Positions 29,907 to 59,590 of a stretch of DNA of 59,590 nt are shown piece after piece (position 1 is the first letter of the stretch; each line of letters starts with the position of its first letter). The stretch comes from a virus, in the IMG/VR virus record IMGVR_UViG_3300017917_000757, positions 1 through 59,590 of that record. One strand, 5' to 3'. Both the position numbers and the translations under genes were made by a program. The notes below the pieces were generated by a model. That model saw nothing but the letters and a program-made list of their open reading frames with translations, was not told the origin of the DNA and searched no databases.

Positions 29907-29963
29907 ATCAACCTCGATGGTTTTGTTGGTGGCTTTGCGAGGATTGTGGCTGGTGGTTTGAAT

Positions 29964-30048
29964 GGCGGAGCCTGAAGGAATCGAACCCTCACCCATCCCT
30001 GAGCGGCCGGGGGTTCAAGCCCCGTTTGTGCCCTGCACGCCAGGCTCC
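29964..30048 (-). tRNA. tRNA-Ser(UGA)
   Basis: Acceptor GGAGCCT/AGGCTCC, anticodon loop CTTGAAC (anticodon TGA), long variable arm as in class II tRNAs, T-arm with TTCGATT, discriminator G and encoded CCA. Confidence 0.9.
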
Positions 30049-30053
30049 GTGTC

Positions 30054-30129
30054 TGGTGCCGCCTGAAGGACTTGAACCTTCAACCCCCGAATTACAAATA
30101 CGGTGCGCTGCCAATTGCGCCAAGACGGC
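30054..30129 (-). tRNA. tRNA-Thr(UGU)
   Basis: Acceptor GCCGTCT/AGGCGGC with one G-T pair; anticodon loop TTTGTAA (anticodon TGT); T-arm with TTCAAGT; discriminator A and encoded CCA. The anticodon stem has one T-T mismatch. Confidence 0.85.
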
Positions 30130-30130
30130 T

Positions 30131-30204
30131 TGGCATACCCCCAAGGACTCGAACCTTGACTGGCGGTTTTGGAGACCGCCGTGCTGCCGTTACACCAGGG
30201 GCAT
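30131..30204 (-). tRNA. tRNA-Trp(CCA)
   Basis: Acceptor ATGCCCC/GGGGTAT; anticodon loop CTCCAAA (anticodon CCA); T-arm with TTCGAGT; discriminator G and encoded CCA. Confidence 0.85.
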
Positions 30205-30209
30205 ACATC

Positions 30210-30284
30210 TGGCTCCGAGGGCTGGGATCGAACCAGCGACCAATTGGTTAACAGCCAACTGCACTACCGCTGTGCTACCTCGGA
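30210..30284 (-). tRNA. tRNA-Asn(GUU)
   Basis: Acceptor TCCGAGG/CCTCGGA; anticodon loop CTGTTAA (anticodon GTT); T-arm with TTCGATC; discriminator G and encoded CCA. Confidence 0.9.
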
Positions 30285-30304
30285 AAATCGTCGGGGGTTG
30301 ATGG

Positions 30305-30392
30305 TGGTGGGGGTGGAAGGATTTGAACCTTCTCGACTCTTGGTCAACGGGTTTACAGTCCGCCGCGCCTCACCATCTGCGCCGCACCCCCA
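30305..30392 (-). tRNA. tRNA-Tyr(GUA)
   Basis: Acceptor GGGGGTG/CACCCCC; anticodon loop CTGTAAA (anticodon GTA); long variable arm; T-arm with TTCAAAT; discriminator A and encoded CCA. Confidence 0.9.
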
Positions 30393-30443
30393 GGCAGGGG
30401 GTTCAATACGACGAGGATGTCGTATTACGCCAAGAGTTTGAAT

Positions 30444-30519
30444 TGGTCTGGGTGGCAGGAATCGAACCTGCGACCTCGTGTGCCCGAGACACGCGCTCTC
30501 CCACCTGAGCTACACCCAG
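30444..30519 (-). tRNA. tRNA-Pro(CGG)
   Basis: Acceptor CTGGGTG/CACCCAG; anticodon loop CTCGGGC (anticodon CGG); T-arm with TTCGATT; discriminator A and encoded CCA. Confidence 0.9.
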
Positions 30520-35371: not shown

Positions 35372-36625
35372 ATGCCCACATGCGAACAGACCGTCGCCAT
35401 GCTCAAAGAGAAGCTGGTCGAGCAGGATCAATTCATCCAGAAGATCAGCAGCGCACCGCTTATACCGGCTGTCGTAATCGAGAAGGCCAAGGCTGGCATG
35501 CTCGTCGCAGCCGGACCTCGGCTGGTCATGGCGCACAACTTTGCTGGCGCAGACGTCGGCTCGACGGTGATGATCCACCCCGAGACGCACCAGGCGCTCA
35601 GCTTGTCGCCGTTCAAGAACAAGCTCGGCTCTCCGTGCGTTGTCGAAGGTGTCATGCCCGACGGTCGCATCGAAGTCCTGGCATCTGGCGACAAGCGCAT
35701 CGTCGTCAAGGCGGCGGCGCTCAAGAACGTCAAGATCGAACCCGGCAGCACGGCGCTGCTCGATGACTCAGGGTTTGTGCTGATGGAGCTGGTCTCGCCT
35801 CCCAAGATCGAGGTCAGCCGCCACACCCACGTCCATTGGGATCAGATCGGCGGCAACGACAGGGCCAAGCGTGAGCTGCGCGAGGCAGTCGACATGATCC
35901 GCGGCGACTCGTCCATCTTTGCGGCGTACGGAGCCAAGGCACCCAAGGGTGTGCTGCTCTACGGTCCGCCTGGCTGCGGCAAGACGATGCTCGGCAAGGC
36001 TGTGGCTACCGAGCTGGGCAGCGACGCGTTCATGTACGTCAAGGCGCCCGAGCTGCTGAACATGTACGTCGGCGCAACAGAAGAGCGCATCCGCTCCCTG
36101 TTCCGCTCGGCTCGTGACCACAAGGCACGCACCGGTCAGACGGCGGTGATCTTCATCGACGAGGCGGACGCCATCCTGCAAGAGCGTGGCACCGGTCGCT
36201 CCGGCGACATGGAAAAGACCATCGTGCCTTCGTTCCTCACGGAGATGGACGGCATCTCCGAGTCCGCAGCCATGGTCATCCTGGCTACGAACCGTCCCGA
36301 CACCCTCGATTCAGCCGTCATCCGCGACGGTCGCATCGACGCCCGCATCCTCATTGACAGACCAGGCCCGAAGGAGGTGACCGACATCTTCCGCATCAAC
36401 CTCAACGGCATGCCAACCCACGACTGCATGGTCGAAGACCTTGCAGCGCAGAGCACTGACTTGCTGTTCAACACGCCGAGCATGAAGGCTCGCATCAGCG
36501 GCGCGATGGTCGCTGGTGTGGTCGAGCGTGCCAAGCGTGCAGCCGTTCGCCGTGACATTGCAATGGGCAAGGTCAGCGGCATCACCATGGTCGACATCAC
36601 GACCGCCATCACCGAAGGAGAATGA
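35372..36625 (+). CDS. Proteasomal-type AAA+ ATPase (ARC/Mpa/PAN-like), 417 aa
   Basis: ATG 35372 after ACGGAGAAACC. Layout: short N-terminal helix, OB-like beta domain (about residues 40-145), then an AAA+ domain. Walker A is GPPGCGKT at 198-205, pore loop Met-Tyr-Val-Gly at 231-234, Walker B FIDEAD with Asp263 and Glu264, and Arg318 and Arg321 in RDGRIDARI serve as arginine-finger candidates. This coil-OB-AAA order is that of proteasomal and FtsH-like unfoldases. The C-terminus ends TEGE, without the HbYX dock used to open proteasomes, and no transmembrane segment or protease domain is present. It probably unfolds or remodels proteins alone or with a host or phage partner. Confidence 0.85.
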   Translation: MPTCEQTVAMLKEKLVEQDQFIQKISSAPLIPAVVIEKAKAGMLVAAGPRLVMAHNFAGADVGSTVMIHPETHQALSLSPFKNKLGSPCVVEGVMPDGRIEVLASGDKRIVVKAAALKNVKIEPGSTALLDDSGFVLMELVSPPKIEVSRHTHVHWDQIGGNDRAKRELREAVDMIRGDSSIFAAYGAKAPKGVLLYGPPGCGKTMLGKAVATELGSDAFMYVKAPELLNMYVGATEERIRSLFRSARDHKARTGQTAVIFIDEADAILQERGTGRSGDMEKTIVPSFLTEMDGISESAAMVILATNRPDTLDSAVIRDGRIDARILIDRPGPKEVTDIFRINLNGMPTHDCMVEDLAAQSTDLLFNTPSMKARISGAMVAGVVERAKRAAVRRDIAMGKVSGITMVDITTAITEGE

Positions 36626-36626
36626 C

Positions 36627-36836
36627 ATGGCAACCCAACTGCGCAAAACCGTACACCACGGCAATGAAGGCGACAGCGCAACCCTCTCGTCGCTTCGTCC
36701 TCCGAGCATCGACGGCGCTGTGAAGGAGGCGGACTCCGCAATGAAGCGTATCGCTGCCGAAGCCCGGCGCCAGCAGGCTGAAGAGCGAGAGCGCATGAAG
36801 CGCGAGAAGCGTCGTTGCTGCGGATGCGGGTGCTGA
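36627..36836 (+). CDS. Small basic protein with Cys-rich tail, 69 aa
   Basis: ATG 36627, 1 nt after the ATPase stop, with AAGGAGA upstream. A charged helix (MKRIAAEARRQQAEERERMK) ends in RRCCGCGC. The four cysteines may bind metal or be modified. It is co-translated with the ATPase, so it may be its partner; no family recognised. Confidence 0.6.
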   Translation: MATQLRKTVHHGNEGDSATLSSLRPPSIDGAVKEADSAMKRIAAEARRQQAEERERMKREKRRCCGCGC

Positions 36837-36837
36837 C

Positions 36838-37176
36838 ATGCTGCTCATCGACGAACTCCAGCTCCTGGGCTGGCTTGCGTTGGCGACAGCCAGCGTCAGC
36901 TTCACCATCACGAAGACGCAGATGTTTGACTTCGTGCGTGACCGCCTGCCCGAAGGCAAGGTGAGCGAACTGATGCATTGCCCGTACTGCATGGCGCATT
37001 ACGTGGCGATGTTCTTTGTTGCGCTCTACGACCCGACACCCTTCACCGGTCGTTGGTATGACTTCATCGCTTGCGTGTTCATCGTTGTCACGCTGGCGAC
37101 ACTGGTCATCCAGGTGATCTCGCTGATCGCCCGCATCTTGAACGTCCTCGTGACGTACGACCCAACCATGAACTGA
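36838..37176 (+). CDS. Membrane protein with CPYC motif, 112 aa
   Basis: Membrane segments near residues 6-24 (LQLLGWLALATASVSFTIT), 53-64 and 74-101 (FIACVFIVVTLATLVIQVI). A conserved-looking loop, SELMHCPYCMAHYVAMF, carries a CPYC pair. This layout matches small phage membrane proteins of the DUF1360-like kind. Function unknown. Confidence 0.75.
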   Translation: MLLIDELQLLGWLALATASVSFTITKTQMFDFVRDRLPEGKVSELMHCPYCMAHYVAMFFVALYDPTPFTGRWYDFIACVFIVVTLATLVIQVISLIARILNVLVTYDPTMN

Positions 37177-39955: not shown

Positions 39956-39998
39956 ATTTCCAAGCTCTTTCCAACACCTCCAGCTTCCCCGCTTCGTG

Positions 39999-40026
39999 AC
40001 CCGCCAATCGGCGGGTTTTGTTTTTT
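39999..40026 (+). terminator. Intrinsic terminator
   Basis: Stem ACCCGCC/GGCGGGT with AATC loop, then TTTGTTTTTT. Confidence 0.9.
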
Positions 40027-40043
40027 GTAACCACGGAGAAACT

Positions 40044-41402
40044 ATGAGGAACTATCCGTACCTCGATCGCATCGCCCTGTCGATGGACGATCAGCAGATG
40101 ACTGACTTTGCTCGCCGCGTTGCTCGGCGAAGCCTTGCCAGTCCCAATGTCAATCAGCTCCTGGACATGCTGTCGCATTTGCCAAGCAATGTCACGTCCA
40201 AGACGATGAGCTTCTTGTCCGACGACTACGAAGAAGGCACACGCATGTTTGAGGTTCGTCTCTACATGCGCAACAACAGCATCTATGACATGGATTTGGA
40301 CGATCTGCGCGACCTGATCAACGGATGGCAAAGCGTCGCCACCGATTGGGATGATATCGAGCACTACCTGTATCGGCACGTCGGCCTTCGTAAGTGCGAC
40401 GAATGCGGCGAATGGGAGCTGAACACCCATACCCGCACCACCTGGGGCAGTGATGACCGCGTGTGCCGTGACTGCATCGACAACAACTACCGCTGGTCTG
40501 ACCGCTATGACGACTACGTTCACGAGGAATACGTGCGCGAGGCGATCGACCAGAACGGTCGCAGTTGCATCATCCATGAGGACGACGACGACTTTCATTA
40601 CGACGAGGACGAGGAAACCTACGTTCACATCGACTACAGCCCTGGCTCTCGCCTGATCGGCACTTACCACAGCAGCAAGGGTCATCAGCGCCCGATCATC
40701 AGTCCATGGACAAAGGCCCGCCGCCGCTTCATCGGTGTCGAGCTGGAGGTCGAGACGCGTGATGTGTCTCGTACCGACAAGGTTCAGGTTCTGCACAAGA
40801 TCATCAACAACGAGGTCTGGGGCAGCTCGGTGTTCTTCGAGAACGACGGCTCGCTGAACAACGGCTTCGAGATCATCAGCCAGCCGATGGGCATGGACAA
40901 GCATCGTGAGCTGTGGTCTTGGCTAACCGACAAGGACGCCATCCGTGGGCTGCGTTCGCACAACACGACGACGTGCGGACTGCACGTTCACATCAGCCGC
41001 GACACGCTGTCCAAGCTCCAGGTCGCCAAGATCGTGACGTTCGTCAATGACCCCGAGAACGAGCCGCTGATCCGCGCTGTCGCTCGCCGGTATGCCGAGG
41101 GCTACTGCCGCATCAAGACCAAGAAGATCGGCGCTGCTGCGCAGTCGGAGGACCGGTACGAAGCGGTGAACATCACGCCTCGCAAGACCATCGAGTTCCG
41201 CATCTTCAAGGGCACGCTCAAGTACGAGTCCCTGATGGCGGCAATCCAGTTCTCCAACGCCGTCGTTGACTTCTGCGGTCGCTCGACTACGTCGATCCGC
41301 GACCTCAAGTCCGACCAGTTCCTGGACTTCATCCGCTCCGACGAGACCGGTGACTTCGACCTGCTCGTCCCGTACCTCGACAACCGTCTCGAAACTGCTT
41401 GA
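40044..41402 (+). CDS. Amidoligase (COOH-NH2 ligase, GS-like fold), 452 aa
   Basis: ATG 40044 after CCACGGAGAA. The N-terminal half has a zinc-ribbon-like Cys set (Cys118, 121, 141, 144) and acidic linkers (HEDDDDFHYDEDEE). The C-terminal ligase domain shows FIGVELEVE near residues 229-235, DGSLNNGFEI from 268, CGLHVHIS at 311-318 (His314, His316), and TIEFRIFKG with Glu384 and Arg386. This matches the amidoligase family, which uses ATP to join a carboxylate to an amine. A class II glutaminase follows 27 nt downstream. Substrate is unknown: a peptide, protein or cell-wall precursor is possible. Confidence 0.85.
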   Translation: MRNYPYLDRIALSMDDQQMTDFARRVARRSLASPNVNQLLDMLSHLPSNVTSKTMSFLSDDYEEGTRMFEVRLYMRNNSIYDMDLDDLRDLINGWQSVATDWDDIEHYLYRHVGLRKCDECGEWELNTHTRTTWGSDDRVCRDCIDNNYRWSDRYDDYVHEEYVREAIDQNGRSCIIHEDDDDFHYDEDEETYVHIDYSPGSRLIGTYHSSKGHQRPIISPWTKARRRFIGVELEVETRDVSRTDKVQVLHKIINNEVWGSSVFFENDGSLNNGFEIISQPMGMDKHRELWSWLTDKDAIRGLRSHNTTTCGLHVHISRDTLSKLQVAKIVTFVNDPENEPLIRAVARRYAEGYCRIKTKKIGAAAQSEDRYEAVNITPRKTIEFRIFKGTLKYESLMAAIQFSNAVVDFCGRSTTSIRDLKSDQFLDFIRSDETGDFDLLVPYLDNRLETA

Positions 41403-41429
41403 TCAATTTACATACAAGGAATCCAAATC

Positions 41430-42416
41430 ATGTGTCTGCTCGTACAACAAACTGCCGCGTCCAACTTCTCTGACGAGTTCCTGGCTGACGTCTACACCAA
41501 GAACCAGGACGGCCTGGGTGTGATGTACGCCGAAGGCGGCAAGCTCCATGTCTTCAAGGCTCTGCCTGCCAACTCGCAGGACTTCATCGACTTCTACCGC
41601 AAGCACGCCGAAGGCAAGGACTGTGTGTGGCACGCCCGCATGCAAACGCACGGCGACATCGACTTCGACAACTGCCACCCCTACAAGGTGACCGACGACG
41701 TCTGGCTTGCGCACAACGGCATCCTGTCCACCGGCAACAACGCCGACAAGTCCAAGTCCGACACCTGGCACTTCATCCACAACTTCATCCGTCCTGCGCT
41801 GATCGGCAACCCCGAGCTGCTGACCGACGAGAACTGGCAGAAGTTCGTTGGCGAGATCATCGGCCGCAGCAACAAGTTTGCGCTCGTGCGTGCTGACGGC
41901 GCCGTTGTTGTGATCAACGCTCAAGCTGGCGTCAACTACGAGAACGCCTGGCTGTCCAACACCTACGCCTGGTCGTACTACAAGTTCAGTGGCCACCGCT
42001 CCGGTGGCTACACCAACATGTACAGCGGCTACGGCGGCTACCGCAGCAGGTTCGAGGACGAGGACTACGAGGACTACTACAGCAGCTACGGCACCAACTT
42101 CAAGGACAAGACCACCGAGGCCAAGGGTGGGTACGAAGGCGCCAAGGACAACACCGTGTTCCCGCCCGTCACGATCACCGCCGCCCAGGTCAGGCCGTAC
42201 GTCAAGGCTGCATGGAATCAGTGGTCTCGCCGTGGCGTTGCCGGTGTGGAGCAGTGGGTGTTCGATGCCCCGCACAAGGCTGCTGCGCTGCTGGCCTACT
42301 GGTACGAGGACATGGACGACGTTCAGGAGCTGGTCGAAGACTTCCCTGACACCGCTGCCGAATGGATTTCCGATCTGTTTACCACCGACAGTATCAGCCC
42401 TAGCCTGATTAACTGA
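41430..42416 (+). CDS. Class II glutamine amidotransferase, 328 aa
   Basis: Begins Met-Cys, so Cys2 is the expected N-terminal nucleophile after Met removal. Typical class II features follow: HARMQTHGD from His68, and AHNGIL with His95, Asn96 and Gly97 as the oxyanion and binding motif. A Gly/Tyr-rich low-complexity insert lies at about 190-225. The domain should release ammonia from glutamine, or act as an amide-cleaving Ntn hydrolase. Adjacent to the amidoligase, it could supply its amine or reverse its bond. Confidence 0.85.
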   Translation: MCLLVQQTAASNFSDEFLADVYTKNQDGLGVMYAEGGKLHVFKALPANSQDFIDFYRKHAEGKDCVWHARMQTHGDIDFDNCHPYKVTDDVWLAHNGILSTGNNADKSKSDTWHFIHNFIRPALIGNPELLTDENWQKFVGEIIGRSNKFALVRADGAVVVINAQAGVNYENAWLSNTYAWSYYKFSGHRSGGYTNMYSGYGGYRSRFEDEDYEDYYSSYGTNFKDKTTEAKGGYEGAKDNTVFPPVTITAAQVRPYVKAAWNQWSRRGVAGVEQWVFDAPHKAAALLAYWYEDMDDVQELVEDFPDTAAEWISDLFTTDSISPSLIN

Positions 42417-42425
42417 GGAGAAGAG

Positions 42426-42602
42426 ATGGACCAGTGGCAGCAGCATGTGCAACTGGAAATCTCGGATGCGCTGGGTGATGACGATCGCCTGCTTGAAATC
42501 ACGCAGTCCTTGACCCAGATGAACGAAGCCAACCTGATCCCCGATCCAGTGGCTGACCAGTTGTTCAACCAGATTTCTATCATCAACAACGGAGGGAAAT
42601 GA
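42426..42602 (+). CDS. 58-aa acidic protein ending in Gly-Gly-Lys
   Basis: ATG 42426 with TGAGGAGAAG upstream, 9 nt after the amidotransferase gene. It is strongly acidic (ten Asp/Glu, two Lys/Arg) and ends ISIINNGGK. The size, charge and terminal Gly-Gly recall prokaryotic tag proteins such as Pup, but the last codons GGA GGG AAA also form the ribosome site of the next gene, so the Gly-Gly may be incidental. Possible substrate or tag of the neighbouring ligase; unproven. Confidence 0.65.
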   Translation: MDQWQQHVQLEISDALGDDDRLLEITQSLTQMNEANLIPDPVADQLFNQISIINNGGK

Positions 42603-43132
42603 AACTGATCACCGAAGGTGACGAGGGGCTTTCGCCCCTTGTCGGCGACATCACCGGCAAGGTGGTTGTCATCAAGCACACGCGTCTGACCGCAAGGTAT
42701 CAGACGACGCGCTTCCAACTGTTCAAAGCGTATGGCGGATTCGGCTGTAAGGAGGACAGCTTAGGCCGTGCTGTGTTCGGCAGATACCTCGCCGACAATC
42801 AGGACGGACGCCGTGATCGCAGCGAGTTCATCGGCATTGCCGACGATGGCTTGGTTCGCCGCGCACTGGAGGACACAACGCCAGTGCTTGAGCTGGACCG
42901 CTCGCTCAGGCAGGTCTTGCTGATCTGCAAGGACGGTACGTACGAGTTCGGCGACACCGCCGAGCAGGCCAGGCAGCGCCTGGCACGTATCACCGAGGCA
43001 GAGGTCATCGCCGCGTACATCGCCCACCCGGAAACCAGGGTGAGCGACATTGGTTTTCTCACCTACCCGGCTGGATGTCCGCCGGTAGAGGCCAGGCTTA
43101 CGAAAGGAAAGGAGTGGATCGCCACCAGCTAG
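42599..43132 (+). CDS. Unknown protein of the amidoligase cluster, 177 aa
   Basis: ATG 42599, overlapping the acidic-protein stop by 4 nt, with GGAGG just upstream. The sequence KLITEGDEGLSPLVGDITGK, then LFKAYGGFGCKEDSLGRAVF and GTYEFGDTAEQARQRL looks like a beta-helix-beta domain. Three Cys occur (Cys50, Cys109, Cys159), with no clear catalytic set. It appears co-translated with the amidoligase genes, so a linked function is likely. Confidence 0.7.
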   Translation: MKLITEGDEGLSPLVGDITGKVVVIKHTRLTARYQTTRFQLFKAYGGFGCKEDSLGRAVFGRYLADNQDGRRDRSEFIGIADDGLVRRALEDTTPVLELDRSLRQVLLICKDGTYEFGDTAEQARQRLARITEAEVIAAYIAHPETRVSDIGFLTYPAGCPPVEARLTKGKEWIATS

Positions 43133-54519: not shown

Positions 54520-57500
54520 TCAGTCGCTCGCCATGGCTGCGTCGCGGAAGTCCTCGCCGGAGGCCATAGCCGCCTTGGCAACCCGGGCGTAGATGCGCTT
54601 CTCGTGCTCCATCAGCCGGTTCTTGCGGCGCACCACCTCGTCCGGATCAGCCCAAGGCTTGGCCTCGTAGTTGCGCAGGCTTGCGCGGGCTTCACGCAGC
54701 TCCTGGGTGGCGCCGGAGACCACGGCATGGGTGCGCATCAGGCCAGGGTACTCGGCCAGGATTTCCGAGCGGCGGTCCGGGTACTGCTTGTATTCGGCGT
54801 ACACGGTGTCGGCCAGCTCCTTGACGCGGCGGAATGACCCGGCGTCGTAGGAGTCCGGCACGGTCGCCGTGAAGCGGCCGATCAGGGGCAGGGGCGTGTT
54901 CTTGATCTCTTCGCCACGAGCCACGCGCACCCCGGTCGAGGCACCCTTGTAGGTCTCGTTGACCACGCCAGGCAGGTACGAGCCAATCAGGAAGTCGATC
55001 GCCGCAGGGTTGATGTCCACCAGGCCGGAGCGTGCCTTGTTGCCACCGGTCACCTCGTTCAGTGAGCGGGCAATGCTCTGGCTGATCGGGGACACGGAGC
55101 GGAACGCCGACTCGCTGTTGGGAATCTTGGCCCCGCCGAACAGGCTGTCGTCACGGTAGATCGGAGCGCCGTAGCGGTTCTCGTTCATCACCCATTCCAC
55201 GATCGGCAGCGTGGCCGTGGGCGACACACCCTTGAGCACCGTGCCAGCGATGGACTTGCTGTCCAGGCCAGAGGTTCCCATCGGGGAGAAGGCCTCGACG
55301 GCGGTGGTGGCGACACGCTTGGCGGTCTCGCTGATCGGCTGCACGCCCAGCAGGGTGTCCACGCCGAAGTGACCCAGGGCGTAGAACGCGTTCCAGCCGT
55401 AGGGGATCGGGATGGCCATGCCTGGGACGTTGGGCATGATCACGGCGGACGTCGCACGCTTGTAGACCGGCAGCTTGTCCAGGTCGTTGCGGCCAGCCTC
55501 GTCGTCATCACCCATCGCACGGGCCACCAGGTTCATCATCGCGCCGAAACCAACCATCGCGGCAGCGTAGTAGCTGGCCTTCTTGCCGTTGAAGCTGATG
55601 GTGTAGTCCGGGTTGATCTTGAAGAACAGGGAGCCGAGCTTGGCCGTGCCTTGCAGGGCCGGGTTGAAGAACAGGTAGAGCTGGCGCACAGCCTTGACGG
55701 AGCCGCGCATGTTGAAGTTGACGGTGATCTCGCCAGCGAACTTCGCGGCCTCGTTGCGGGACATGCCGCCTTCCTTGGCGACCATGTAGGCCACCAGGCG
55801 AGGAGCAATTTCCATCGGGGTCGTGAAGTGCTCGATGGCGGTGAGCACCTTGCCGAACTTGTCCTTGGCGTGCTGGAACTTGGAGGTCTCGCCCAGCAGC
55901 TCGTGGATGTCCTGGACCTGTTCTTCCAGACCCTTGCGGTTGAGGAACGTGGTCAGGCCACCTTCGGCCTTCATCTCCTTGTACGCCGCCATCAGGTCCG
56001 GATCGACGCTGATCTTGGAGCCGCGGTTGGACGCCATGAAGTAGGCGACCTTCACGGCCTTGGGCAGCAGCGTCATCATCCGTGCGGCCTGGGCCTTGGA
56101 GATGCGGTTGTCCGAGGCGGCGTTGAAGAACAGGGTCTGGGCATCGCGCAAGAAGTTGACCGGTGCCCACGCCGGGTTGTAGGTCGTGAGCATCTGGCCG
56201 ACCGTGCGGTTGAAGCGGCCGATCGCCTCCATGAAAGCGTTGGCTTCTGGCGGGTAGACCATGCCGTGGATGGCTTCGGCAAACGAGCCAGCGCTGGTGT
56301 CCTTGAACTTGATCGTGACGGGGATGCCGTTGATCTTGGCAACCATCACGCTCTTGTCGTTCATGTACTGGTCGTTCTCGCGCTCGACCACCTGGCCGGT
56401 CTCGTCGATGACACGCTTGAACTCGACCTCGTTGATCACGGCGTAGTTCGGGTCGTAGTTGTTCTCGAAAAGAGCGATGACCTTCTGGGCAACCAGGTTC
56501 TTCTGACCACGGATCAGCGCCGCTTCCATGCCAAGGATGGTGCGAGCCAGGATGTCGGTCGCTTCGGTGCTGCGACCCATCGAGCGCTTCTCGATGCCCT
56601 TGACGTTGAACTTTGTGCCGACCAGCTTGGCCGGGTCATCGAACTGATCCAGCTCAGGGCTCACGCCAGACAGGTTGACGTAGTGCTTGTAGCGCTTCAT
56701 CAGCTCGGCGGCGCCCAGCACTGTCTTGCCGTCCGGGGTGGTGTAGTTCTTGGAGCTGATCATGCCCATGCGGACCTGATAGTTGATCTTGGCCTCGGAC
56801 ATCTTGTCCGTCAGGCGACCGATCTCCATCAGCTCGTTGTAGAACTTTGCGCCCTTGATGGTACTGAGGTAGTCGCGGGCAACCTCGGTCTTCATGCCGG
56901 AACCGCCGTCAGGCATGTCCTTGTTGATGCTGGCGATCTGACGGTTGCGCTCTTCTGCGTGGCGAGCCAGCAGGAAGCGGTTGATGTCGTCGTAGTGAGC
57001 GCCCTTGGCCTTGGCATCCTCGACCCACTTCATGATCGGCTGCACAAAGTTCTCGCGGAAGCTCTCGACCACGGCACCAGTGCGGCGCTCGTAGAGTTCC
57101 AGCGCTGTGCGTACGTCCATGTCTTCGGTGATGCGGCCCTTTGCGCGGAGCGACTCGACCAGGTCAAACACCGGACGGTATTCGTTCTGGAAGCGGGTGA
57201 TCTGGTCACGCATCCAACGCTTCATGCCGGTCAGGTTGGTCATCTCGGTGAGCTTGACCATGTCCTGCGGAATCTTTTCGTCGATGAACAGGCCAGAGCG
57301 CTTGCGGCGCTGCACCTTGCCGAACTTCTGCATCACGCTCAGCACGGACTCGTAGTCGTCGTGGTTGGAAGTGACGTAGCCTTCCTTGTCGCGGATGTCG
57401 GCGCCCATCGCACGGAACAGAATCCAGCTCTGGGTGATCGGGTTGAAGCGGGCGTACGCCTTGGTGACGCCTTCCTTCTGGGCGAACATCTCGTAGACGC

Positions 57501-59590
57501 GCTCGACCTGGGAGAAGCGAACGCCCTGGTCCTCGCCCATGAAGGAGGGGACGCCACCGTTGCGGGCTGCGTTGCGTGCTGCTGCCAGGTGGAACGCCAG
57601 CTCAGCGTTGGTCAGGTTGCCCAGCCAGTCGGCGACACGGCCAAGGCCAATCTCGCGCAGGCCAGCAATCACCTTGCCGATGAATTGCTTGAACGCACCA
57701 ACAGCCTTGTTGTCGCCAGCCATGTCGGCCAGCACTTCCTCAATGGCCTCCAGCTTTGGCGTGCCCTCTGCGATCAGAGCATCAGCGGCGTTACGCACGC
57801 CAGGGTAGGTGCGGTACATGTTCTCCAGGAAGCTGTCGAGCTTGGGGCCCAGCAGAGCACGCAGACCCAGGTGGCCATAGACCTCGTGGAACAGCGTGAA
57901 CTCAACGTCAGCGTCTGACGCCAGCATGTCGCTGAACATGTAGACCGTGCCAGTCTTGGGATCGAACAAACCCTTGGCGCCCATGCCAGCATCGAGCTGC
58001 TTGACCACACGAGCGCGAACATCGTCGGGGAGCTGCATGATGTTGCGCAGCACCGCCACGTTCGGAGCGTTCTGGAATGTGCTCAGGATGCGAGCGACAG
58101 CAGCCTGCACCTTGGCAGACGTAACGACACCATTGAAGAACGGCTTTGCCGCACGCTTGAAGCGCAGCTCGTCAGGGTCACCCTCTTCGGTCTGGCCGTA
58201 GTCGCTGTTGAAGTCGAAGCCTTCGTCAGAGTTGGCCAGGTCGGAGACGCTCTCTTCACGGGCATCGTTTGCCTGACCGTATTCCTTGACGCCGAAGTAC
58301 TGCTCGATGGTCTGGCCACCGATCATTTCCTCCTGCATCACAGACTCGACGAAGTCGCCGACGATCAGCTCGATCTGCTCGGGGGTCATCGCACGCTCGC
58401 CGATTGCGTCGTTGAGCTTCTGGGCGTTGGCCATGATGATCGGCAGCTCGTCAGCCTGAGCGGCCAGCACGCGGGCGCGGAACTTCTCGAACAGGTCTTC
58501 CGGCAGGGCGTCCATGCCAATGAGCTGTTGCAGGTAAGGCGCCTTGGCGTTGACCTCGGCATCCTTGAGCACAGCCTTCTCGTGGCGCTCGATCCACTGA
58601 CGGAACTGCTCGACCTCGGTCGGGGCAATCGGACCGTCTTCGCCGACGATGCGCTCACGCAGGTCGGGGCGGGTCTTCAGGGCAAAGGCGACGTCCTGGA
58701 ACCATGCGGTCTCCAGGTCGCCAACCATTGCGCGAAGGGCCGCAAGCTCACGCTCCGGGATGCTGCCCGGGTTGCGCATCTGCGACAGCGAATAGTTCAC
58801 GAACAGCAGGTTCGGGAACGCGGTCTGCACGTCATCGGCACCACGCATCACGTCGTCAACGGTGCGGCGGGTTGCCAGCGCTTGGCGACGCTCGTTCCAC
58901 AGCTCGTAGGCGGTGCGCTCTGCGGCGGTGAAGTTGTTGATGGTGTCCGGGGCTGAGCGCAGAACCTTGTGCATGGAACGCAGCCATGCCTCACGGTACA
59001 CATGCTGATCGCCGTTGGCCTGGACGTACTCGACCATGCGGGACTGGAGGGCGATCTGGCCGCTCAGGTCCAGCATCTTGCGGGGGATGTCGTAGCCGCT
59101 GGCACGCATGGCTTCCACCAGGTCGCCGAACGTGAACTCCTTAGCCTGCATCGCCTGCTGGGCAAACTTCAGGGCGTCAGCATCCTTGATGCGGCCGGAC
59201 TTGAGGTCGCCGACCAGGCGGTAGGCAGCAGCACGCGGGGCGTCCAGGTCTTCCTGGATGGCATTGAGGAGCGCCGACTGAACCTGCGGCATTGCCCTGG
59301 CCTTCTCTTCGGGAACGCCGAAGCGACGCAGGAACTGCTCGTCGGTCATGTCGGACTCACGGCGGGACTTCTCGTCGCGGCTGCGCTCTGTCTCGTAGAT
59401 GCGCTCGATGTCCTTGCGGTTGCCGATTTCCTTGAGCATCTCGCGGATGAAGCGAGCAGACGGCTCGACCACGGAGTCTGCCTCGGCAGCGGTCAGGCCT
59501 TCGCCGATCGCTTGCGAGCGGGTCTGCGACACCTGGTATTCGAGGTGGCGCATCGAGCGGTAGAACAGGACGGCAAGACCACGGGATGAC
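54520..59590 (-). CDS. Giant virion-associated polyvalent protein, C-terminal part
   Basis: Continuation of the gene whose start is at 3365; the frame is open through the window end. It holds residues about 1,090-2,778. A metallopeptidase-like HEVYGH motif lies at residues 1657-1662 (FHEVYGHLGL), with no distal ligand confirmed. Long coiled coils follow. A C-terminal LPD38-like region (about 2,200-2,550; LYLFFNPALQGTAKLGSLFF) is typical of polyvalent phage proteins. The protein probably travels with the DNA or lines the ejection path and may modify host proteins. Any apparent start at 59553 is internal. Confidence 0.85.
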   Translation of the reverse strand, partial: SSRGLAVLFYRSMRHLEYQVSQTRSQAIGEGLTAAEADSVVEPSARFIREMLKEIGNRKDIERIYETERSRDEKSRRESDMTDEQFLRRFGVPEEKARAMPQVQSALLNAIQEDLDAPRAAAYRLVGDLKSGRIKDADALKFAQQAMQAKEFTFGDLVEAMRASGYDIPRKMLDLSGQIALQSRMVEYVQANGDQHVYREAWLRSMHKVLRSAPDTINNFTAAERTAYELWNERRQALATRRTVDDVMRGADDVQTAFPNLLFVNYSLSQMRNPGSIPERELAALRAMVGDLETAWFQDVAFALKTRPDLRERIVGEDGPIAPTEVEQFRQWIERHEKAVLKDAEVNAKAPYLQQLIGMDALPEDLFEKFRARVLAAQADELPIIMANAQKLNDAIGERAMTPEQIELIVGDFVESVMQEEMIGGQTIEQYFGVKEYGQANDAREESVSDLANSDEGFDFNSDYGQTEEGDPDELRFKRAAKPFFNGVVTSAKVQAAVARILSTFQNAPNVAVLRNIMQLPDDVRARVVKQLDAGMGAKGLFDPKTGTVYMFSDMLASDADVEFTLFHEVYGHLGLRALLGPKLDSFLENMYRTYPGVRNAADALIAEGTPKLEAIEEVLADMAGDNKAVGAFKQFIGKVIAGLREIGLGRVADWLGNLTNAELAFHLAAARNAARNGGVPSFMGEDQGVRFSQVERVYEMFAQKEGVTKAYARFNPITQSWILFRAMGADIRDKEGYVTSNHDDYESVLSVMQKFGKVQRRKRSGLFIDEKIPQDMVKLTEMTNLTGMKRWMRDQITRFQNEYRPVFDLVESLRAKGRITEDMDVRTALELYERRTGAVVESFRENFVQPIMKWVEDAKAKGAHYDDINRFLLARHAEERNRQIASINKDMPDGGSGMKTEVARDYLSTIKGAKFYNELMEIGRLTDKMSEAKINYQVRMGMISSKNYTTPDGKTVLGAAELMKRYKHYVNLSGVSPELDQFDDPAKLVGTKFNVKGIEKRSMGRSTEATDILARTILGMEAALIRGQKNLVAQKVIALFENNYDPNYAVINEVEFKRVIDETGQVVERENDQYMNDKSVMVAKINGIPVTIKFKDTSAGSFAEAIHGMVYPPEANAFMEAIGRFNRTVGQMLTTYNPAWAPVNFLRDAQTLFFNAASDNRISKAQAARMMTLLPKAVKVAYFMASNRGSKISVDPDLMAAYKEMKAEGGLTTFLNRKGLEEQVQDIHELLGETSKFQHAKDKFGKVLTAIEHFTTPMEIAPRLVAYMVAKEGGMSRNEAAKFAGEITVNFNMRGSVKAVRQLYLFFNPALQGTAKLGSLFFKINPDYTISFNGKKASYYAAAMVGFGAMMNLVARAMGDDDEAGRNDLDKLPVYKRATSAVIMPNVPGMAIPIPYGWNAFYALGHFGVDTLLGVQPISETAKRVATTAVEAFSPMGTSGLDSKSIAGTVLKGVSPTATLPIVEWVMNENRYGAPIYRDDSLFGGAKIPNSESAFRSVSPISQSIARSLNEVTGGNKARSGLVDINPAAIDFLIGSYLPGVVNETYKGASTGVRVARGEEIKNTPLPLIGRFTATVPDSYDAGSFRRVKELADTVYAEYKQYPDRRSEILAEYPGLMRTHAVVSGATQELREARASLRNYEAKPWADPDEVVRRKNRLMEHEKRIYARVAKAAMASGEDFRDAAMASD
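59492..59590. repeat. Terminal redundancy, right copy (assembly overlap)
   Basis: Exact copy of bases 1-99; see the left copy. Confidence 0.9.

Follow-up and report, generated by a model that had tools for sequence, protein, structure and literature searches.

Genes for an amidoligase and a class II glutamine amidotransferase have been annotated in several groups of phages, among them the Marvin-like, OM43, LUZ24/tf-like and phiEco32-like phages (PMC3517423, PMC3890496, PMC5498523, PMC10580990), and both enzymes are on record for phages Tf and UFV-P2. In PSA-HP1 and its relatives, the two lie inside a seven-gene peptidoglycan modification cassette (PMC5498523). As cited in the paper on the OM43 phages, Iyer et al. 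(2009) proposed cell-wall modification and superinfection exclusion for phiEco32, and the same paper also refers to the Marvin paper for other proposed roles (PMC10580990). Here we describe such a pair in the IMG/VR virus record IMGVR_UViG_3300017917_000757, analyzed over its whole length of 59,590 bases (hereafter the window), where the gene for the predicted amidoligase P0001 is followed directly by that for the predicted amidotransferase P0002. We propose, with a probability of roughly one half, that these two genes serve the phage as a module for the glutamine-dependent formation of amide bonds, for which an envelope peptide is the foremost candidate target. An earlier note on this DNA, prepared from the sequence without database searches, had regarded the locus as the best candidate for an undescribed system; this view has to be given up, since the pair was predicted as early as 2009 (Iyer et al., quoted in PMC10580990) and has been annotated repeatedly, and the window holds instead a minimal form, a new member of the known phage amidoligase/amidotransferase kind. 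The note's reserve about the modified target and the benefit to the phage was justified, and our literature search found neither a report of the pair's substrate since the 2009 prediction nor an experimental demonstration that the cassette acts on peptidoglycan.

Comparison with described phage loci

A distant blastn search of the region against phages gave no match, and protein searches were therefore used instead. The Methylophilales (OM43) phages MEP401 and MEP402 have the same two genes in the same order, adjacent or overlapping, at 28-29% and 30-31% identity, and likewise have no cassette genes recorded beside the pair, but they differ in backbone, in the small downstream genes and in a longer N-terminal region of the ligase that does not align clearly. 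In mycobacteriophage Marvin, the amidoligase gp105 is followed directly by the class II amidotransferase gp106, as in the window, although the proteins are very divergent (28% over the ligase core) and backbone and host are unrelated. The cassette of phiEco32, LUZ24/tf, PSA-HP1 and relatives (Iyer et al. 2009; Hardies et al. 2013, both as cited in PMC5498523) shares an Amidoligase_2 protein and a class II amidotransferase, situated in the early region, but these phages also have an ATP-grasp ligase together with a gamma-glutamyl cyclotransferase and, in many cases, a second COOH-NH2 ligase. No RimK-type ATP-grasp match turned up in the window or in any of 21 relatives, in a search that detected 13 of its 14 controls, and the gamma-glutamyl cyclotransferase family PF06094 was absent from the same 22 records (9 of 14 controls positive); PF14395, representing the second COOH-NH2 ligase, gave no match either, but neither did any of its controls. 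Close to the pair, some more distant relatives do carry an ATP-grasp-like gene or one for a gamma-glutamyl cyclotransferase (the latter in locus L090), and in a Stenotrophomonas phage the full cassette set surrounds a relative of P0002, thus linking the pair to the proposed cell-wall-modification cassette (PMC5498523, PMC10580990). The two-gene form, lacking ATP-grasp ligase and cyclotransferase, is the simplest version in which this chemistry could be studied. Among bacterial enzymes, MurT is a relative of the Mur ligases, and its partner GatD is not a class II N-terminal nucleophile (Ntn) amidotransferase. The resemblance of MurT/GatD of Staphylococcus aureus to what is proposed for the phage pair is one of working only, in that a ligase and a glutaminase gene there serve to amidate a carboxylate (PMC3267633), and we claim no homology.

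The two enzymes and their linkage

P0001 (452 residues; 40044..41402, + strand) matches the Pfam family Amidoligase_2 (PF12224) at 5.2e-9, with 36.8 bits vs. a gathering cut-off of 22, as well as PHROG amidoligase families; its homologue in locus L002 scores 38.3 bits against the same Pfam family. The protein comprises an N-terminal helical region, a four-cysteine zinc-ribbon-like knuckle, an acidic linker and a C-terminal catalytic domain of the glutamine synthetase (GS) fold. The knuckle cysteines C118, C121, C141 and C144 (CxxC...CxxC) are invariant or nearly so among homologues, and in an alignment of 85 homologues E233, E235, D268, E276, H314, H316, N376, E384 and R386 are invariant, these being, as judged from the conserved columns, the residues expected for handling of metal and substrate in GS-type catalysis. 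The AlphaFold2 model, based on 82 aligned sequences, had a mean predicted local distance difference test score (pLDDT) of 92; in one structure-prediction alignment, three rows from annotated phage records were left out. Foldseek with this model returned 31 matches at E<0.001, including GS, gamma-glutamylmethylamide synthetase (GmaS), Dop, PafA and YbdK, with a best E of 1e-5 and a probability of 1.00 to GS, Dop, PafA and YbdK, but with TM-scores of only ~0.3, which place P0001 in this superfamily and not as a close relative of any member. Searching PDB sequences with a profile of the ligase yielded nothing but weak zinc-finger matches, located at the knuckle region. Based on family, conserved residues and model, we predict that P0001 is probably an ATP-dependent amide ligase.

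The match of P0002 (328 residues; 41430..42416, + strand) to Pfam GATase_4 is barely above the cut-off (3e-5); with HMMER, a profile of its family retrieves relatives from the PDB, GlmS and PurF, and aligns with them over the HxRxxTHG and HNG motifs. Across 72 homologues there is no variation at C2, H68, R70, G97 or D111 and almost none at H74, G75 and N96. From what is known of GlmS and from the position of the motifs, we take R70 and D111 to hold the alpha-carboxylate and the alpha-amino group of glutamine. As far as these aligned residues tell, the glutaminase active site of P0002 is intact. The glutaminase domain (residues ~1-190) is followed by a C-terminal region of ~120 residues matching no known family; P0002 thus has no synthase domain of its own, and as a stand-alone glutaminase it needs a partner.

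Loci were gathered independently from each of the two genes and counted only where enough sequence was available, a pair being defined as an amidotransferase located after an amidoligase on the same strand within 600 bases. The amidotransferase adjoined the amidoligase in all 68 viral loci reached through the amidoligase gene, and the amidoligase preceded the amidotransferase in all 58 viral loci reached through the amidotransferase gene. On bacterial genome contigs, the pair was adjacent in 13 of 18 cases, and in three of the five exceptions the amidoligase lies close by, either in a different arrangement or sharing a single frame with the amidotransferase. Removal of near-identical cases left 98 non-redundant pairs, and no third conserved gene was found near more than 13 of these 98 loci. 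The pair occurs on unrelated backbones, e.g. in Methylophilales phages, in mycobacteriophage Marvin and in an Acinetobacter phage. Pairwise distances within the P0001 and P0002 families correlate with each other (rho 0.85 over 91 pairs, as compared to a permuted maximum of 0.20), with a contribution from common descent. Recurrence of the same active-site residues and gene order in dozens of divergent phages renders a chance observation untenable, and the strict adjacency suggests that the amidoligase is the partner of P0002. Being widespread and strictly linked in phages, the pair is presumably beneficial. We also considered, as a gene fusion, a single frame spanning both domains in an Atopobiaceae metagenome-assembled genome (L180, 5173-7218), but did not use it as evidence, because its Arg-rich joint and the loss of the free N-terminal Cys that the amidotransferase would suffer indicate that it is probably a frameshift.

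These results bear out much of what the earlier note had recognized in the two proteins. Pfam and PHROG agree with its amidoligase call, the zinc ribbon is present as a conserved four-cysteine zinc-ribbon-like knuckle, the fold, which had been set beforehand as the test of this assignment, proved by Foldseek to be that of the GS superfamily, and the Ntn-type class II assignment of P0002 is borne out by conserved Cys2, HAR..THG and AHNG motifs. Conserved co-occurrence was likewise found for amidoligase and amidotransferase, but it does not extend to the four-gene system that had been envisaged, as homologues of the other two products, P0003 and P0004, are limited to one clade.

Proposed function and alternatives

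We surmise that P0002 would hydrolyze glutamine via its N-terminal cysteine and release ammonia, while P0001 would activate a carboxylate with ATP and metal, probably as an acyl-phosphate as in glutamine synthetase. We infer that ammonia would pass from one protein to the other, such that the activated carboxylate and the ammonia derived from P0002 would yield an amide. The zinc-ribbon-like knuckle and the helical region of P0001 probably serve to hold either a macromolecular substrate or the partner enzyme in place. As the leading candidate for the target, we favor a carboxylate of peptidoglycan stem peptides or of another envelope peptide, which would fit the proposals in the literature; its amidation would alter the cell surface during infection, e.g. 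against superinfecting phages.

Several considerations speak against this proposal. We know of no experiment demonstrating activity of either protein, and the envelope target itself derives from literature proposals rather than from data of this analysis. No other envelope-modifying gene was recognized in the window, and with the ATP-grasp ligases and the cyclotransferase of the larger cassettes missing here, the cassette hypothesis may not transfer. Taken by itself, the distance correlation between the two families can reflect shared vertical descent, and the glutaminase might be working as a hydrolase rather than supplying ammonia. In a variant of the proposal, which we regard as tentative and rather doubtful, the two genes without further cassette members would make up a complete glutamine-dependent amidotransferase, a phage type in its own right that many unrelated phages employ. 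Its macromolecular target would then differ from that of the larger cassettes and be bound by the zinc-ribbon-like/helical N-terminal region of the ligase.

The main alternative concerns the role of P0002, which might be an amide hydrolase that trims an amide or a gamma-glutamyl group, with the ligase then adding a different amine at the freed carboxylate in a remodeling of cell-wall peptides. Ntn-type enzymes do include amide hydrolases. Moreover, papers on the larger cassettes list the amidotransferase among degradation enzymes or as an aminohydrolase (PMC5498523, PMC11945000). Set against this is the near or complete invariance of R70, N96-G97 and D111, residues that hold glutamine in GlmS-type enzymes (D111 being assigned by motif only), which favors glutamine as the substrate; the minimal pair also comes without the cyclotransferase or ATP-grasp ligase. 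We consider this alternative unlikely, if still one to be reckoned with. Slightly less probable in our view is action of the pair on a small soluble metabolite or on a side chain or the C-terminus of a host or phage protein, e.g. amidation of a regulator for host takeover. The fold relatives of P0001 include enzymes of small molecules (GS, GmaS, YbdK) and of proteins (PafA, Dop), with scores that favor neither group, the zinc-ribbon-like knuckle could bind a macromolecule, and the surroundings of the pair are a stretch of small genes outside the structural region; against these points, no conserved substrate-like small protein or transporter lies beside the pair, and nothing in the analysis points specifically to such a target. 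Amide-forming and glutamine-using enzymes also act in some pathways of phage DNA hypermodification, and the two proteins might accordingly decorate a modified base in phage DNA; this is very improbable, given that no base hydroxymethylase of the thymidylate synthase family was found in the window or in 21 relatives by searches whose positive controls worked, and that none of the window genes that were scanned matched a DNA base-modifying enzyme.

The most improbable of the alternatives is a tagging system resembling that of Pup, in which the GS-fold ligase would conjugate the acidic 58-residue protein P0003, encoded directly downstream (42426..42602, + strand), to targets recognized by an Mpa/ARC-like AAA ATPase encoded 3.4 kb upstream. 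Such an idea arises readily, inasmuch as PafA and Dop are among the structural matches to P0001, P0003 is small and acidic with a Gly-Gly tail, and the best NCBIfam match of the AAA ATPase is the Pup-proteasome ATPase (1.4e-72, its Mpa/ARC score being below the family cut-off). The tail, however, follows the Shine-Dalgarno of the next gene. The 3' end of P0003 reads GGA GGG AAA TGA, with the stop TGA overlapping the start ATG of P0004, so that GGAGGGAAA (42591..42599, + strand), which contains the Shine-Dalgarno of P0004, specifies in frame the Gly-Gly-Lys that ends P0003. Among 19 distinct homologues of P0003, Gly-Gly was found in the last four residues of 9/9 with a terminal GGAGG or AGGAG but of only 1/10 without, and the residue after it varies (K, E, G, L or none). 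Among all collected frames with GGAGG near the stop, Gly-Gly was present in 38/38 when the motif was in frame and in 1/143 otherwise; an independent example is a P0004 homologue (L102, 9131-9646) ending in Lys-Gly-Gly via an in-frame GGAGG. Gly-Gly thus tracks the in-frame Shine-Dalgarno; the protein family does not conserve the tail, which is best read, from these comparisons, as arising incidentally from the ribosome-binding site that serves P0004. In addition, Pup (PF05639) and its ligase family PafA/Dop (PF03136) were unmatched in the window and four relatives (the PF03136 search was positive in Corynebacterium, and the searches for the Pup family had working controls), the AAA ATPase is missing from 21 related records that carry the pair and lacks, by inspection, the C-terminal docking tail of Mpa, and a small protein of the P0003 family is absent at most pairs. 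On the grounds of tail conservation, Pup/PafA family searches and AAA co-occurrence, we rejected this system. The Gly-Gly-Lys ending to which the earlier note had drawn attention is therefore real in the sequence, but its significance is accounted for by the in-frame ribosome-binding site; a tempting but mistaken hint of a Pup-like system in a virus is thereby removed, and C-terminal Gly-Gly in compact genomes calls for caution in general.

Downstream genes and surroundings of the pair

All four open reading frames that had been described as tightly packed were found on the + strand, with Shine-Dalgarno-like sites and with ends that overlap or nearly touch. The last of these, P0004 (177 residues; 42599..43132, + strand), has no assigned function. 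An alignment of 14 homologues divides it into two segments, the N-terminal ~95 residues being absent in the closest relatives; its AlphaFold2 model is confident (pLDDT 89.6), and a PDB structure search with this model gave no match below E 0.069. Homologues of P0003 and P0004 were found in one clade of related phages only, where the P0003 family sometimes occurs apart from the pair (L146, L148, L157, L158 and L050), and most amidoligase/amidotransferase loci do without either family. By this distribution, both are clade-specific passengers and not core parts.

An intrinsic-terminator-like hairpin with a T-rich tail, detected by a pattern scan, is located at 39998..40025 (+ strand), ending ~20 bases 5' of the amidoligase start and directly upstream of its ribosome-binding site. 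Most close relatives have a hairpin at the same position with changed stem sequences. The gap from the hairpin to the start codon is too short for a promoter, so that transcription of the operon probably depends on read-through or antitermination; alternatively, the hairpin may shield the 5' end of a transcript that is processed.

The block of small genes around the pair consists mostly of genes without assigned function. Elsewhere, the record encodes a portal or head-tail adaptor, a terminase, major head and internal virion proteins, a primase-helicase, an Erf-type annealing protein, an integrase and six tRNAs; PADLOC gave no meaningful defense match. The AAA ATPase gene (35372-36625, + strand) encodes a protein of the proteasomal-ATPase type with a sub-threshold match to the proteasomal OB domain, and was apparently inserted along with a pair of small genes (36627-37176); Brevundimonas phages have related AAA proteins, annotated as proteasome-associated ATPase. 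The six tRNA genes (Ser, Thr, Trp, Asn, Tyr and Pro) are clustered at 29963-30519 on the - strand beside the packaging genes, and a reading frame of 1677 residues occupies the end of the record (54520-59553, - strand).

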